Positions 27,633 through 50,177 of a DNA stretch of 64,000 nt are shown piece after piece (the first letter of the stretch is position 1; every line of letters starts with the position of its first letter). Origin of the DNA: Tetrahymena thermophila SB210 (lineage: Eukaryota; Ciliophora; Oligohymenophorea; Hymenostomatida; Tetrahymenidae); contig NW_002476250.1 in assembly GCF_000189635.1 (NCBI RefSeq), positions 248,001-312,000 on the forward strand, read 5' to 3'. The notes beneath the pieces are model-generated. The model did no database searches. It saw only the letters and a program-made list of their open reading frames with translations, and was not told the origin of the DNA. A program made the position numbers and the translations under genes.

Positions 27633-30600
27633 TCAGTCCCTCTAATTACCCTTCTTATTGCTCTTTTTAAGCATGACTTTACTACTTGTTTTTGTTTTTT
27701 TAATTAACTTATTTATTTTTAATGATTAAGCTTTCTTTCTTTACACACCACTAGCTATTCTTTCATCTCCTTTTGAATTTATGGATGATTGTGACTAAGA
27801 TTATGAATTTGATGAAGAGTTTTAAGAAGTGTAACTCTTAACTGAATTTTCCTATTGAATATTATTTTCTTCATCATCATCATCATTTTTTTATTTTTTA
27901 TTTTTCTTTTTGAAAAGTTTGTTAATTTGAATCATTTTTATTTTATTACTGCTATTTTTTGTTAAGTTTTTGCCTATTATTTAGTTGTTTTTTTGAAAGT
28001 TATCTAATTTTTAATTAAAGATTAAATTTATTTTTTTAGATAAAATTATTTTTACTTATTGTATTTATAACTAGTTCATTTTGGAAAGGTAATAAGTCTG
28101 CAATAAATTCTTGTGTATTCAAATTATTTATGTCAACTATGGGGAATTCTTTATCAGTGTGAGTTTTATACTTTTCTCTAAATATATCTATATTCTATTT
28201 CAGCATTTCAAATTTATATTTTTCTCTTTTATTCACTTATTGACATAATTACTTTAATCTCTCAACTTCAACTATTTTTTATGTGTGTTCATCTTTTAAT
28301 TTTAATCCTTTTACTGAATTTTTTATACCTCTGCTATTCATGTTTAATTGCTACTCTTAATATTCTCTTTACTAAAAAAAAGTTAAATAAAATAATTAAA
28401 ATGTTAAAAATACTCTTTGCTAGGACATCTGCTGAGAATAATATTCAAACACAGATTCTCTTTGAATTAAATTAATATCTCCTCCTAATAAAATATAAAT
28501 TCCTTTGTATTTCATGAGTAATTCATTTCGAAGACATCTAGTACAATAACAATTTCCCTTTTGAAATATATTTTTAATTCATGCTTTTCTTAAAATACTA
28601 TTTTAATTTTACTTAGCAGAAAGGGCAAAGCCAATCTTACTTATCTTTAATTTCTGAAAGAATTAAATCGTAATTTTATTTTAGACAAGATCTACAGTAC
28701 ATTCTTTTGCAAACCAAATCTCCATCTACTTTTTAGAACATAGTATAGCAGTTTCTTTTTTTGTTGACTTGAGGCTTCTTACTGTTTGTATTGTCAGATT
28801 CAACTAAATTAAATAAAATTTCTTTCAAAGCTATTAAAAAAATAATTGTTTACTAAATTAAAATAAGAAGGGATCAGTAACAATATAATTATGGACAGGT
28901 ATTCCCATAGTAGATGCTTTATACTTGCATTAAAAAAGAATACTCTTTTTAAACAAATGTTTACAGTGATGACATATTTCATACTAATTCATTTTATTTC
29001 CAGGTTATTCTTTTTAAGTTATCAAATCCTTAATATTTTTTAGCTTCAATTAGTTTGGCTTATCTCTGTTTTTTTATATATAATTCCATCCTAAAAACTT
29101 TATAAAATTATATATATTTTTATTGTTTTTATTTTATAATTTATCTATTTTACGTTGTTTGCTATATGAGAATACAGCGTTTTTTAAGGAATGTTATAAA
29201 AAGAAAATAAATTTTAATCTCTTAAAGAGTTCAACTCATCTAATAACTACTCACTTATCCATTCTGCTGAATCATTATAAGCTGACTCAAACCTTAATTC
29301 AAATTATGGCTAATTGTATTTGTTTGTGTATCCAGTAATGCATGAAATAGTTTCCGAAAGCTATTTCTTCTCCAATCTTAAAATAGTTTAATGTAAAAAT
29401 GAAGCCTACAAATTCATATTCTCCATTTTAGCAAAGTGTTTCTCAAGCAAAAGGTGCTTTTGTTCCTCATTATAATCTTTTTGTATGTGAATATTTTCAT
29501 TTTTAGACTTTGAAAGAATATAATCTGTTTCCAAATATATCATTTGCTACTTACAAAATTCCATTTTAAGTTGCTGCTCTAATCTGAATAAATTATTTTT
29601 AAATAAAAAACTTTAATGCCATTTTCTGATATGTGTATTTTTTGATTTTACCTTTAAATATTCTTATGATTTTGTTGATTTATTTATTTTAATTCTTCTT
29701 TTAATTTTACAGTTTCCTCCAACAGTTGATCTTCTTCTTCTTGTATTTCTTTGTATAATTATGAGTTTTAAGCAATATTCTAGATAATCTATAGCAATTA
29801 GTTTTTTTCATTTTGAAATGCTTCAAGTTAGCTTTAATAACTAGATGAATTTTTAGGAATTTATTTCTTTTTGGTTTGCAATATTTTTTATATGAGAGAT
29901 TTATCCTTAATATATTGATTAGCAATAAGAAAAGTAATTCTCATATGAAGTAGCAGATTTTCATAGTTTAGATTAGATAAGTCATCATCTTAATACTACC
30001 TTTGGACAGATTCATCTAAGATATATTAAACAGCTAGCTAAGCTCTCCAATCGTCCCATTCTAACTCCTAATTGTCAGCTTTTATGAATTTAAAATGAAA
30101 AATTATAAAATTTTGTAATTGTTAATTTTTATAAAACAAAATAATTCTAATAAATTCATAAATCAAAAATAATTAGATATATATGAAATAAAAATCCTAA
30201 AATTTGATTGGATAATCTTATTTGAGCTCAGATTTTTCATAAAAAATTATATATATCGTTGTTATCTTGATAAATAGAAAAGATAAAGCAAATTTCCCTA
30301 TTTAGTTTATAAGAAGTGCTCATTAATGTTATGCAATTATTAATGAAACATTAAATTTTTATTATTATTTAAATAAATATTTACGCTCAATAGGAGTATT
30401 GAATAAATTTTTTAAATACTCAAGCTTATTTTCATCCTAACTTTGCACTCTCCTTAAATATGTGCTATTGACATGTCTCCAAAATTATCTCATTTAATGA
30501 TCTGTTTAAGACAATCCTTGTATTTACTAATAATTTATCTAGTAATTAACACTTCGAACTTTCAGAAAATTGCTATTAATTCCAAAAATAAAAGTTAACA

Positions 30601-32453: not shown

Positions 32454-34641
32454 ATGCGTAATCAAAGTGATTAAGATAGATATTCTACAATTAGCTAAAG
32501 TACCAATGAAAATACTTTAGAACTTCCAATATAAGGATAAGATGATGATTCATATACCACAGAAAAAGCAAATTAAAAAGAACTAGATTAAGATATATTA
32601 AAACATGACAAAAAAGACAAAGAACCACCTAAGAGAGTCAACATATTTGCTTAAAAACATCGCAAAAATCTAATGAGATTTCTTTAGTATTCATGGGAGA
32701 ACAAAAAATTTTTAATATTTGGAAATATAGGGTTGGTTGTTACATCTGCCTGCTAAATATCTCTACCTTATTTAACAGGTAGAATGGTTGATGTCATAAG
32801 CACTGATAAATCTTCTGAAGATCTAACGTAAGCAATTTTAATTTACTATATTATTTAAATAAATATATAGCTATTTTTAACCATTTTATCTTAAATAAAT
32901 TAAAGAAAATGGGATTTAAATATAATTTATTCAATTTAATAATTTTTTAATAATTCATTTCAATAATTTTCATAAATTAATTAAATAAATAAATAGATGG
33001 TTGGCTTTAGCTTTTGTTACTCTAGGAGTGTTTTCAGCTATATTTTCTTTTGTTAGAGGATATTCGTTTAATATACTAGGAGAAAAAGTTATGTTAAAGT
33101 TGAGAAGTGAACTTTTTGATAAATTTGTTTAAAAAGATGTTGAATTCTATGATGTAAACAAAAGTGGTGAATTGATGAGTAGAATAACAAGTGACACAGC
33201 TATTGTTTAAAGTGCTGCAAGTGACAGCTTATCAATTCTACTTAGAAATATTATTTAGTTTATAGGTAGTTTTATTATACTTTGGATAATTTCTTATGAG
33301 TTGACTATGATACTCTTTATAATAGTGCCTCCACTTATAATAGGAATAGCTGTATTTATCAGGTTATTCAAAAAATACTCAAAATTATATCAAGATAAAC
33401 TTGCTTTGGGTAATTCTTTTGCTAACGAAGCATTTGGTAACATCAGAGTAGTAAAGAGTTTTGCAAGAGAACAGAAAGAGTCTTAAAATTTCTACAAATA
33501 CATGTAAGATGCTTATGTCTATGGAGAAAAAAAATCACTTCTACATGGATCCTTCTTAGGAATAGTTACTCTTTTAGGAGAAGGAGCAATTTTATGTGTA
33601 TTATGGTATGGAGGTAAGTTAGTCTTAGAAGGAAAATTAACAACTGGATAACTATCCTCTTTTATCCTTTACACTATTACTCTCTCTACAGGTCTCTTAG
33701 CAGTTGGTGGAATTTCTAATTAGATAATTACTGCAGTTGGAGTTTCTGAGAAGTTATTTGAAATGATGGATGTTGAAATATCAATTAAATCAGGAGTAAA
33801 AACAAAAAATAGCTTGGAAGGTAATATCTCTTTTGAGAACGTAACCTTCGAGTATCCAACTAAAAAGAATGTTGATGTAAATTAAATTAAACTATAATAT
33901 TTTCTTATTAATAATTTTTAAAATTAGGTTTTGAAAAATGTAAACTTTGAAGTAAAATAAGGACAAGTAGTTGCTTTAGTAGGAAGTTCTGGGAGCGGTA
34001 AATCTAGTACTGTTAGCTTGATTTAAAGATTTTACGATGTTAAATAAGGATTAATTAAATTGGATAATATTGACATTAAATAATACAATATAAATTGGGT
34101 TAGAGAATAAATAGGCTATGTTTCTCAAGAGCCTACTTTATTTTCTGGTACACTAAAAGAAAATATAGTTTATGGAGTTAATTCTTATACATAGCAAGAT
34201 ATTGATAAAGCCCTTGAAATGGCCAATGCAAAATAATTTGTTTATGATACTACCATTTTCCCTGATGGTCTTAACACACTAGTAGGAGAAAGAGGTGTCA
34301 AGCTATCGGGAGGATAAAAATAAAGAATAGCTATAGCAAGAGCTTTAATTAAAAATCCTAGAATTTTAATATTTGATGAAGCAACTAGCGCTTTAGATGC
34401 TGAAAGCGAATACCAAGTATAAAAAGCTATAGACAATCTCATGGTTCATGGCTAAAAGACTATAATTGTAATAGCACATAGATTAAGTACTATTAAAACT
34501 GCAGATACAATAATAGTTATATAAGATGGAGAAGTAAAAGAAATAGGAAACCACAAATAGCTGCTATCAATAAAAGATGGATTTTATACTAAACTAATTC
34601 AAAGATAAATTTCAGGTGCTGATGAATTAGACTTGCAGTGA
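32454..34641 (+). CDS. ABC half transporter, ABCB family
   Basis: Exons 32454-32827, 32997-33876 and 33928-34641; phases fit exactly and give 655 aa. Residues 1-65 are hydrophilic. A type-1 ABC exporter membrane domain follows, with about six spans ([69 protein letters not shown] and two later). The nucleotide-binding domain has Walker [11 protein letters not shown]-loop YVSQEP, signature LSGGQ (its Gln is TAA at 34315), Walker [13 protein letters not shown] and switch His IAHRLST, so it should be active. One NBD plus one membrane domain at this length matches ABCB half transporters (TAP, ABCB8/ABCB10-like), which work as dimers. The N-terminus is acidic and polar, not an obvious mitochondrial presequence. 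Substrate is unknown; peptide or organellar export are the main family options. Confidence 0.92.
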
Positions 34642-35518: not shown

Positions 35519-40236
<4,718 letters not shown>

Positions 40237-45836: not shown

Positions 45837-48800
45837 TCAAAAATTTCCATGTAAAGTGTGTCTTTTGTTCAAATTAGTTGTGGAAGAAGGAATCATTCCA
45901 AAATCTAAAGCTTTCTGGGGAGTCTAAGAGTCCTTCATAGATGATTTCTGTGATTTAGAAACATTAGTTGAAAGTAAAGACTGCTTTTTACTTTATGATG
46001 TTATGTCTTCAAAATATTTAATAAAATTGTTTTTAGCAGAGTATAAGTTATCATTTATTGACAATTTTTTGTGTTAAGGTTCTAATGATTTTCTGCTGTT
46101 TTAATTTGATTTTTACTTATTGTGAGTTTTTTTAGTCGCTGATTTAATCATGTTTGGATTAATTCTTTGCAAAGATTACTGGTTGTTAGAGCCAGAAGAC
46201 ATCATATTTAAATCAGAAGTAAGGTAATGCTAGAGCATAGAATTAGACTAAATTTATTATTATGAAGACATTATTGAAGGGATATTCAAATTTGAAGATT
46301 GTCCTAGAGATTGATATGGACCACTAGATGATTCTGATGAAGACACATTGTTTCTATGAAGATTGGTTGTTGTTATACTAGTGGTTATGCTACCTCCTAA
46401 AGAGCTTGAAGGCAACAAAAGAGAAGATTGAGCCACCTTTGCCAAGTTAGTTGAAGAGAGACCTGTCATGTTCCCACAGCTATTCTTTTTCTTTTAGATA
46501 GCCCCACCTATTTAATAATTATTTTCTTTATTATTGATTGAGTGGATGTTGTGATTATTACTAATTTTACTGCTCATAGCAGCTGAAGGAGTCGTAGTTG
46601 TTGTTGTAGCATAAATATTTTTCGACTAAAAAGATAGAGATTTTGCAGCAGCATTAGAGATAGATTTTTAATTATTGTTGTTAGAATTAGTTTAAGAATT
46701 TGTTGTAGTATTAGCTGTGTTTGTACTGTTCATATTGTTTGAATATGAGCTTGTTGCACTATTTGGGGGATAAGATAGAAGATGGGATTAAAGCTAATTA
46801 GATTAATTCTATCCAATAGTACTGCTAATTGGCTACAAATCATTTTACAAAGAATTACTGCAATAAGTATTATCATTACGTACACTGTTGGAGGCAGGAT
46901 GTATGATCGAAAGAGAGTCTTCTCTCTTTTCTAATGGGGCTTTCTTTTTAGCATTAGCATTAGATGCAGTAACTGGTCTTTTTGCCTCCAACATCTGATA
47001 ATTCTTAGGGGAATAGCAAGGAGACATATATCTCTTTTTATCTTAAGAAGAAGAAACTGCGTGATGGGCAGCAGTTGAATTTGTTGTGGTTCCACCATAT
47101 TGATTCATTTGAGCTTAATTTTATGCTAGTTAGTTAATTTGATGGTAATTCAGATGATGAGAGTTAGGTGCATTAGAATTTACACCTGTCCCACTATTAT
47201 TTTTTAAGCTTTTTGTAGAAAAGCTCATCTAACCCTTCAGGAAACTCTTAATAAGAGCTGCAGAATCAACAGACTTGTCCTTAATTTAAGTCTGTACATT
47301 ATTATAACCATTTTTCAAAATATCTAAATCTAAAAATTTATTTTAAGGTTTAAGCATAGCTGCTGCAACTGCAATATTACCATTTAAAGTATTTGACATA
47401 TTCATTCCTAAGTGAGCATTTTAGTTGCTCATGTTATGATTATTTGTTCCATAAACAGAACCACCTATGCTATTATTAGCTATAAAGCTAGGTTTGTTAG
47501 AAGTGCTTTTCTTAGCTGTATTTTACTAACTGCTAGCCTAATTACGCGAAGCACTATTTTCTGTATTTGTGCGCTTCTATGATGTAAACTGTTAGATAAA
47601 TTAATTATTTGCATTTGTCGTTGTTGTGGATGTAGAATTCGAATAGCTTTGATTTGAAATTCCATTTGATAATTTAATTGGAACACTATTTCTTGAAGAG
47701 CTAGGGCACTGCTCATTTTAGTTAATACCAATTTGACTTTGCCCGTTTCCATAAGAAATATTGTTAATATTTGTATTTAAACCGCTATTAACATTAGTAG
47801 TATTTGTAAAGTAATAGCTATTGTTATTGTTGTTATTGCTATTTATGCCTGCATTAATATTATATACCCCACTTTGAGAAACACCTACACAGTTACTTTT
47901 ATTATTTTAACTAGTATCTTAAATATTAAAAGAATTTTGTTGGTGATGTATTGCACCTTGTTATCTTGAATAGCTTGGAGCTGCTGATGTCTGATGAGAT
48001 TGCATTGAATTGTGCATTTTCTTTTATTAAGATCTTTTATCATTCTGTAATGTACTTTGAGAGTGATTATTTTATGTAGTCATTGGGAAGCTTTCTCTTC
48101 CTTAAGTGTTCACTTGAGTATTATTTGGTTCTTTCTCTATTTCTATTTCCAAAAGGTTTTGTCTGCTATAATTTTTAAAAATTTAATATATAATTTTAAA
48201 AGGATTGATTGTCTTTATTTTTAAAGAATATATCAGAAAATATTAATACCTTAACAATTTTACGGAGGTAGGATTTACGTAATAAAAAAAGCTGAAAAGA
48301 GATTCTTTGTTATTTTTACGAGAGGTGATGTTTGGTACTTGTATTTCTCTAAATTCAGAGTGTATATATGATTGATTTATGTCTATTTGTATAGGAGGCT
48401 AAATCTTTAAGTTTAGAATATCCTTCCAATTCACATCACTAAACCATTTGCATGACTTAATGTCTTCAAATGATTTTATTCTATGATTTGGTCTCTTATC
48501 AAGCAACTAGTAGAGTAACTCTCTTAGATGAGGATTTAAATAATCTGGAACTTCGAGTTCTTCATTTGCAATATTTTTCAATATAGTTTCAGTATTGTTA
48601 GCATAGAATGGAGGCAATCCAGTAACTAACTCATATAAAAAGGCACCAAGTGTATAGAAGTCAACTGAATAGTTGTAGCCTTAACGCAACAAGACTTCAG
48701 GTGCCATATATTCGGGAGAACCGCAGAATGAATCAGTCATCTCTTCTCTATGCATTCCAATTTTAGAAAGACCAAAGTCTGTCAATCTAACATGACCATC

Positions 48801-50177
48801 CATATCCAATACAATATTTTCAGGCTAATTTTTAAAAAAAATTATCAATTAATAAACCTAATAGCATAAATAAATACATAATTTTTAATTTTATTTAAAG
48901 AATTATCTGTTAGAAAATTATCTTCAAAATTAATAAAAAAAATTATTAATTTATATGTTTACTTTCAAATCTCTGTAAAGAATCTTATTCGAGTGAAGAT
49001 ACTCAAAGCAAATCAAAATTTCTACAAAGTAAAATTTTGATTCATTTTCTGTTAATTTACGATTTTAAAGGTGAAAGAAGAGCTCTCCTCCACAATAGAA
49101 TTCTAAAAGGAAATTCAGGTGATACTCAGATTCAAAGCATGCATGAAGACTTGCAATGAATGGTGCTTTTGCAGCGTCAATTAAAATTTTTCTTTCACGC
49201 AATAACTACTCTAATCTTTTATATTCACTCAAATGAGTTTTGGGAATCATTTTGAGGGCAAATAATTTACAAGATTCTCTATGTCTAACTGTTTTAAAGA
49301 ATAATAATTTTATTTACATTTTCAATTAGTAGCATTTTCAAAAATATTTTTAAATTAGCTTGATGAAAGTTCAAATATTTTCATTTGTTTAGTAATTTTT
49401 GAATTTATCTCCCTAAAATATTAATTATTTGCTTGATTATTTAGTTAGTTAGATTGATTGATTGATATATAGATAGATAGATTGTTAGATATTTAATACA
49501 AAGCATACCAATTTGAAAATAAGCATTCAACTTTGTAATTTTCTTTGATTATGTTAAAAATTAATTAGTAGGTTTTAAATTTTTTGAATATTTTTAGAGA
49601 TAATTCAATCCCATAATTTGCTTAATAATAGCTGATTAAATAATAATTTTGAGAAGCTTTATTAAAAAGCAAACACATTTATTTTTTCATGAGGATATTT
49701 AAAATTAAGCAAGATAGAAATGAAAGATAAAATTGAATAATTACCTAAAAACACATCAGATGTACCTCCCTTTCCCAAGCACTTTAAGAAAGTGAAGTCA
49801 TGAATATTTAATTCTTATTCTTTTTGGTTAGCCTTATCGCTTTTTTATGCATAAACTGGCTTAAGAAGGATGTTTTCTCTTATCTGATTAACTTTTTTAT
49901 TAGGCTGAGTTAAATAGTAATCTATAACTTCATTTTCACCAACAGTTTCCAAGCAGACTATATTTTCATAGTTTGGAAAGAGAATTTGTTAGGCCAAAGC
50001 TTTGACTCTCTAAGTTAATCTGGCTACAGAGCTATCTTTGGGTACTCTTACTTCGATGCTATTATCTTCATCTAAGTAAATTATGTAAACCAATTAATTT
50101 AATTCATCTTTATATTCTCTGCTCATTTATCCGTTAATGAATTAAGAAGAGCTATTTGGGGTTTTATTTCTACTCAT
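45837..50177 (-). CDS. AGC-family Ser/Thr protein kinase with long Asn/Ser-rich tail
   Basis: Exons in transcript order 50177-49745, 49288-48963 and 48824-45837, in phase, about 1248 aa. Residues 1-110 form a compact N-terminal domain ([20 protein letters not shown]) that could be ubiquitin- or RA-like. The kinase starts with the glycine loop [11 protein letters not shown] and has the Lys in [10 protein letters not shown], catalytic loop [19 protein letters not shown], the AGC activation segment [15 protein letters not shown] and [21 protein letters not shown]-terminal hydrophobic motif, [10 protein letters not shown], resembles the FxxFxY site of S6K/PKB/PKC kinases, so phosphorylation by a PDK1-like enzyme is plausible. 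The last 750 residues are Asn/Ser/Thr/Gln-rich and probably disordered. All catalytic residues are present. An intron just after the hydrophobic motif (48250 downward) looks possible by signal but breaks the phase, so read-through is preferred. Confidence 0.88.
49289..49744 (-). other. Long kinase-gene intron (456 nt) with GATT/GATA microsatellite
   Basis: Borders are set by the kinase glycine loop (VFL) and the following [14 protein letters not shown] segment. It contains tandem TTAG, GATT and GATA tetranucleotides at about 49439-49482. It is several times longer than the usual introns in this window. Confidence 0.7.
49439..49482. repeat. TTAG/GATT/GATA tetranucleotide microsatellite
   Basis: Consecutive tracts of TTAGTTAG, GATTGATTGATT and AGATAGATAG lie within the first intron of the kinase gene. 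Slippage-type repeat; likely length-variable. Confidence 0.8.

Follow-up and report, generated by a model that had tools for sequence, protein, structure and literature searches.

A divergent zf-4CXXC_R1 zinc finger gene in a ciliate genome where HELLS and C5-DNA methyltransferase were not detected

Introduction

The locus described here raises the question of what a zinc finger of the kind known from CDCA7 might do in a genome in which the usual companions of that protein have not been detected. According to the accessible part of a survey of R1 fingers, CDCA7 (or CDCA7F) is always accompanied by HELLS and almost always by DNMT1 (PMC10538959). In the excerpted text of another study, R274 and Q275 of CDCA7 contact the hemimethylated CpG, R304 contacts the backbone, and binding requires the conserved C terminus that follows the finger (PMC11343034). 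A preliminary description of a 64,000-nucleotide stretch of DNA (hereafter the window; positions 248001-312000 of contig C259) had proposed a CDCA7-type finger at 28530..28975 and had suggested that it could have a different role in a ciliate. Since R1 variants are widespread in eukaryotes, as the available portion of the survey reports (PMC10538959), a ciliate R1 variant is unsurprising as such. In the literature searched, no R1 finger in a ciliate appeared in the titles and abstract openings of the matches listed, and the supplementary tables of the survey may list one.

Results

The gene lies on the minus strand. Its predicted model (30159..27633) has eight exons and encodes 714 amino acids in the ciliate code, ending at a TGA stop; with TAA and TAG taken as glutamine codons, the frames stay open. 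All seven introns begin with GT and end with AG, are 42-68 bases long and contain 11.8% GC, compared with 25.3% in the exons, the overall GC content being approximately 23%. The features of the model are listed below, where C334 denotes the contig that carries a paralogue.

27633..30159, minus strand: whole gene, spliced model of 8 exons and 714 amino acids
30138..30159, minus strand: exon 1, start codon, 22 bases; inferred, and the least certain exon
29652..30078, minus strand: exon 2, WDDW and coiled-coil-like N-terminal region (coiled coil by eye)
29154..29583, minus strand: exon 3, end of the coiled-coil-like region and the 89-residue module at residues 205-293, which is kept in C334
28854..29097, minus strand: exon 4, CHHC, cysteine 3 and the beginning of the insert between cysteines 3 and 4; frame backed by R[DN]KPN and CHHC, both also in C334
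28613..28803, minus strand: exon 5, end of the insert and cysteines 4-8 (spliced model, Pfam)
28414..28557, minus strand: exon 6, cysteines 9-11 and the conserved post-finger segment KGIYxLxGGDI; 17/34 residues identical to C334 over residues 447-480
28534..28974, minus strand: zf-4CXXC_R1 finger (PF10497), cysteine 1 to cysteine 11, with two introns inside
28056..28371, minus strand: exon 7, helical-looking segment with the VERLKQLCQQVNKREKYK region common to C334 (alignment)
27633..28003, minus strand: exon 8, S/Q/K-rich tail (spliced model)

All of the cysteine blocks named in the preliminary description are present, on the minus strand from 28974 to 28534, and splicing is indeed required to join them, as two introns (28853-28804 and 28612-28558) spread the finger over three exons. 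The first of these is one of 25 listed donor-acceptor pairs that preserve the reading frame right through the finger, and 11 of the 25 also retain CHHC and cysteine 3. It was preferred because it has the usual size and because the C334 gene is interrupted there by an intron of identical phase, support that is partly circular. An upstream frame, IEAKKYQGFDNLKRITWK, was attractive by composition and was rejected, with no GT donor seen that would join it to the CHHC frame and with the R[DN]KPN frame present in C334. The spliced protein also contains the WDDW stretch (residues 15-18), the coiled-coil-like N-terminal half (by eye) and the S/Q/K tail that had been described.

The searches of the genome covered a 101-Mb assembly of 445 contigs. 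Tandem CCCCAA repeats are found at both ends of contig C4, and on C4 only among the matches listed. Such end repeats are a trait of macronuclear chromosomes in Tetrahymena and its relatives, and the source is therefore probably a Tetrahymena-like macronuclear genome. Elsewhere in the window, Pfam recognises the membrane region and ATPase of an ABC transporter (32719-34638, plus strand) and a protein kinase catalytic domain in a 1028-residue open frame (45840-48923, minus strand), and a 306-residue frame on the plus strand (39316-40233) matches the KH-domain family PF23469 with 42 bits.

All 11 signature cysteines of the R1 finger were found in the spliced protein, at residues 335, 338, 350, 406, 411, 414, 434, 437, 441, 443 and 446. 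They fall into four blocks, namely CHHC (335-338), FQC (350), VCKRMYCRSC (406, 411 and 414) and CPFCQGNCYCTRC (434, 437, 441, 443 and 446), with the spacing CXXC X11 C X55 C X4 C XX C X19 CXXC X3 CXCXXC. A Pfam search with the whole spliced protein matched PF10497 (zf-4CXXC_R1) over residues 388-450 with 32.1 bits (E 1.3e-7; cut-off 22.7), which bears out the family named in the preliminary description, and a copy of the protein from which the insert had been removed matched with 42.3 bits (E 8.9e-11). In the search with the whole protein, Mce4_CUP1 (0.074) was the sole other family at E<=10, and no RING or PHD model came close. Two occurrences of a relaxed pattern covering cysteines 4-8 (C x3-7 C xx C x16-21 C xx C) were counted in the six frames of the window, while its mean in 40 Markov-1 simulations was 0.0; the pattern exceeds chance.

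An alternative explanation is that the cysteine block belongs to another finger, such as RING or PHD, or is a chance match. A RING-type family, zf-C3HC4_4, did appear in the scan of a shortened fragment, at E 5, and when the finger was used as a single-sequence query of the PDB, a Teashirt structure (2dmi, E 0.012) ranked above the CDCA7 chains 8yv8, 8tle and 8tlk, whose matches were weak (E 0.07, 0.24 and 0.37). The 2dmi match lies mostly within the insert and is spurious, and Teashirt was rejected as a relative. The ligand pattern is conserved in C334, and against the E values of PF10497 for the whole and shortened proteins, all other families reached E 0.07 or worse. We therefore consider this alternative extremely improbable, and it appears largely refuted on the profile and the ligands: the RING, PHD or ligand-losing outcome that the preliminary description had named as fatal to its claim gave way to an R1 profile with 11 of 11 ligands after splicing. 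Cysteine 393 was rejected as a ligand, its counterpart in C334 being asparagine. The finger is, from its profile and cysteine pattern, a divergent form of zf-4CXXC_R1.

Little else in the protein was recognised. No CDCA7 match was found in the remainder, in keeping with the observation that it does not look like animal CDCA7. For the module at residues 205-293, Pfam and PDB profile searches found nothing relevant; it is chromo-like by eye, and a single-sequence model gave helix-strand-strand-helix-helix at low confidence (pLDDT 50). Pfam found no JmjC domain in the whole window protein and no match to exon 7, the PDB gave none for the C334 counterpart of exon 7, and no partner-binding domain was recognised in the window protein with either Pfam or the PDB.

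We then compared the finger with the criterion for CDCA7 orthologues, which in the accessible part of the survey consists of the 11 cysteines together with R274, G294 and R304 (PMC10538959); the same part gives the spacing CXXCX10CX4CX7CXXCX19CXXCX3CXCXXC for vertebrate CDCA7 paralogues (PMC10538959). The class I residues were placed by counting from the cysteines, using the published spacing and numbering. By this count, the counterparts of R274, Q275, G294 and R304 in the window protein are K339, H340, R408 and N418, and the positions of G294 and R304, which lie in a stretch visible in the PDB-matched CDCA7 chain, are altered in all three R1 genes found in this genome. Judged by its residues and spacing, the window protein is not CDCA7 (class I), as all three residues are changed and the C3-C4 and C4-C5 intervals differ (55 residues instead of 4, and 4 instead of 7). 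The term 'CDCA7-type' thus holds for the presence of an R1 finger and fails in the strict class I sense (K339, R408, N418 and the two intervals). Because the counterparts of R274, Q275, G294 and R304 are all changed, it is unlikely that the window protein would read hemimethylated CpG.

Two further R1 genes were found, and PF10497 is above its cut-off in all three (32.1, 28.6 and 34.6 bits). With the finger exon as the query, the genome yielded one further place, on C334, that was 54% identical. This gene (minus strand, locus L034) is a full-length paralogue with a spliced protein of 1070 amino acids, whose tail is very acidic and then lysine-rich. The first 686 residues of C334 were aligned, and identity along the length of the window protein was 33%, amounting to 26/43 in the finger (residues 402-446), 46/181 in residues 1-204 and 31/89 in residues 205-293. 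All 11 ligands are kept between the two, as against none of the four other cysteines. In our reading, six of the seven C334 introns match the phase of window introns 2-7, four of these being at the identical alignment column and two merely near, and the CHHCKH of the window gene corresponds in C334 to CHHCRQ, which retains the equivalents of human R274 and Q275. A further segment of C334, DMERVRLVISQVCRREKLK, gave no match in the PDB or Pfam, and a genome search with it found nothing elsewhere and missed the window gene too. Its suspected resemblance to the post-PHD regions of JADE/BRPF proteins thus gained no support.

A genome search with PF10497 returned only C118, with 35.7 bits; it overlooked both the window gene and C334, so further R1 genes may exist. 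The C118 gene (plus strand, L035:2727-4508) encodes a highly charged protein whose finger is without cysteine 8. Directly after the finger there is a borderline SSXT match of 25.2 bits (E 1.2e-5, 193 residues; cut-off 26.2), which rises to 26.8 bits (E 3.9e-6) on a 106-residue fragment. In a PDB scan of C118 the SMARCA4-SSXT fusion 7vrb came second at E 0.26, behind a tau chain at 0.097, and an SSXT search of the genome missed this SSXT place of C118. SSXT is the domain of SS18 that docks on BRG1/BRM. These matches suggest that C118 could possibly be an R1 subunit of SWI/SNF, a complex that in T. thermophila includes several unassigned proteins, Saf1 to Saf4, as described in the available excerpt of PMC5844071. 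In the literature searched, SSXT is unmentioned in the 10 listed of 18 matching papers.

The association with HELLS and DNA methylation that the preliminary description mentioned for this finger gained no support here. PF00145, the C5-DNA methyltransferase family, had no match in the genome at E<=0.1. SNF2 (PF00176) gave 33 exon matches, spread over 19 places; by eye, 16 of these places were typed as CHD (2), SWR1, BRM, INO80, ISWI (2), RAD54, Mot1, Rad5/16 (4) and SMARCAL1 (3), with no HELLS-like member among them; the remaining places, on C236, C270 and C60, had no DDM1 match at E<=1e-5. The DDM1 query, an approximate sequence, matched genes of the CHD, INO80 and ISWI types. Its best match was on C154 (37-44%), in a gene with a chromodomain-like stretch, and it matched short stretches of INO80-type and ISWI-type genes at up to 58-59%. 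A tree of 15 SNF2 proteins of T. thermophila has the same groups and, in the part of that paper available, names no Lsh/HELLS (PMC9786623). The searches ran exon by exon and scored the best candidates, so that a HELLS or DNMT gene split over many exons could escape them; with this scope, a HELLS/DDM1-like remodeller and a C5-methyltransferase are probably absent from the genome. A search of the genome for the SRA domain gave no match, and its controls were silent too. Just past the end of the window, C259:314025-316004 holds an SNF2 gene of the Rad5/16 type, one stretch of which looks RING-like by eye; some 36 kb separate it from the R1 gene, a proximity that is probably chance.

These results bear on the possibility that the window gene is a genuine CDCA7 orthologue that has evolved fast, still senses hemimethylated CpG and works with an undetected HELLS. 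The retention of CHHCRQ in C334 would fit this possibility, as would two features of the window finger that are exactly those of class I, its 19-residue C6-C7 interval and its terminal CxxCx3CxCxxC. However, the changes at G294 and R304 extend to all three genes, the C3-C4 and C4-C5 intervals depart from those of CDCA7, and neither a C5-methyltransferase nor a HELLS-like gene was found. In addition, the accessible part of the survey reports CDCA7 to be absent in all available SAR genomes except Tribonema (PMC10538959). Overall, we regard orthology with CDCA7 as very unlikely.

We also considered whether a class II-like finger might dock on ISWI, as in plant DDR1-3, which combine R1 with DDT and WHIM1. 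Substitution of G294 and displacement of cysteine 4 towards the C terminus, both seen in the window gene, are class II traits in the available text of the survey (PMC10538959), and the genome has two ISWI-type genes by eye. On the other hand, no DDT or WHIM match was found with Pfam at E<=10 in either the window protein or C334 (a search in which HMMER filtering discards the majority of hits weaker than roughly 0.1), cysteine 4 is displaced far more than in class II, and R274 and R304 of the window gene are changed as well. Docking on ISWI is thus a doubtful explanation.

A genome profile search for MT-A70 gave eight exon matches on four contigs. Another possibility is that the window protein reads the state of adenine methylation (for example, hemi-6mApT) and conveys it to a chromatin complex, a role that would stand in for that of CDCA7 in 5mC. 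MT-A70 is present at four places in a genome where no C5-methyltransferase was found, and another R1 gene carries a putative domain for docking on SWI/SNF. In the excerpts available, hemimethylated ApT is described as the preferred substrate of AMT1, and 6mA readers are still sought (PMC12695648, PMC11760949). We consider this explanation improbable on the whole.

Discussion

Our findings point, with moderate confidence, to the window gene encoding a nuclear adaptor that docks on DNA or nucleosomes by means of a divergent zf-4CXXC_R1 finger and that is uncoupled from 5mC and HELLS. Because the finger is a divergent form and no HELLS or C5-methyltransferase was detected, the gene probably has a chromatin job other than sensing half-methylated DNA, the use to which the finger is put in plants and animals. 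The finger and the conserved post-finger segment KGIYxLxGGDI would sit on the surface DNA of the nucleosome, as the CDCA7 finger does, and the coiled-coil-like N-terminal half and the module at residues 205-293 would hold a partner complex, which probably remodels or modifies chromatin and is distinct from HELLS. The earlier suggestion of a different role for the finger in ciliates is thus a reasonable one, and it gains some support from the three R1 proteins without detected 5mC machinery, one of which has a borderline SSXT match.

What departs from the survey is the presence of R1 fingers where CDCA7, HELLS or DNMT were not detected, together with the R1-SSXT arrangement. A genome with three divergent R1 proteins, in which HELLS and C5-methyltransferase went undetected, separates the finger from the 5mC pathway and offers a natural test of the past or possible role of the finger without 5mC. 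The source looks like a relative of Tetrahymena, a genetically tractable group in which 6mA is in active use and for which the excerpts available name no 6mA reader. A bolder proposal, which we think quite improbable, is that the R1 fingers of ciliates have been rewired, such that the three divergent proteins link remodellers other than HELLS, in one case SWI/SNF through SSXT, to another DNA state, perhaps the hemi-6mApT that replication leaves behind. If true, ciliates would have for 6mA what the CDCA7-HELLS pathway is for 5mC.

Several known systems can be compared with the adaptor that we propose. Proteins in Acanthamoeba and Taphrina join a chromodomain to R1, and residues 205-293 of the window protein are chromo-like by eye only. 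Like class III (IBM1 and JMJ24), the window gene keeps none of the three ICF residues and has a shortened C4-C5 interval; unlike class III, it is without a JmjC match, and its C6-C7 interval is not shortened (19). It shares with class II (plant DDR1-3 and fungal CDCA7F) the substitution of G294, here by arginine, and the C-terminal displacement of cysteine 4, but cysteine 4 is displaced much farther and Pfam found no DDT or WHIM1; outside fungi, in the available part of the survey, class II is reported only where CDCA7 is present as well (PMC10538959). The likeness to SS18/SSXT concerns C118 alone, in which an SSXT/SNH helical domain lies C-terminal of the finger (26.8 bits vs 26.2), whereas the R1 finger and the long charged region of C118 set it apart from SS18.

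The differences from CDCA7 and CDCA7L lie in the C3-C4 interval (55 vs 4) and the C4-C5 interval (4 vs 7), in the changed positions of R274, Q275, G294 and R304, and in a genome where HELLS and DNMT were not found. CDCA7 has conserved C-terminal helices after its finger, and the segment conserved between the window protein and C334 stands in the same position, the comparison being one of position alone. CDCA7 also has an N-terminal helix that binds HELLS. The window protein and CDCA7/CDCA7L nevertheless have in common eleven cysteines in the same order, with an identical first CxxC and, from cysteine 5, an identical CxxCx19CxxCx3CxCxxC.
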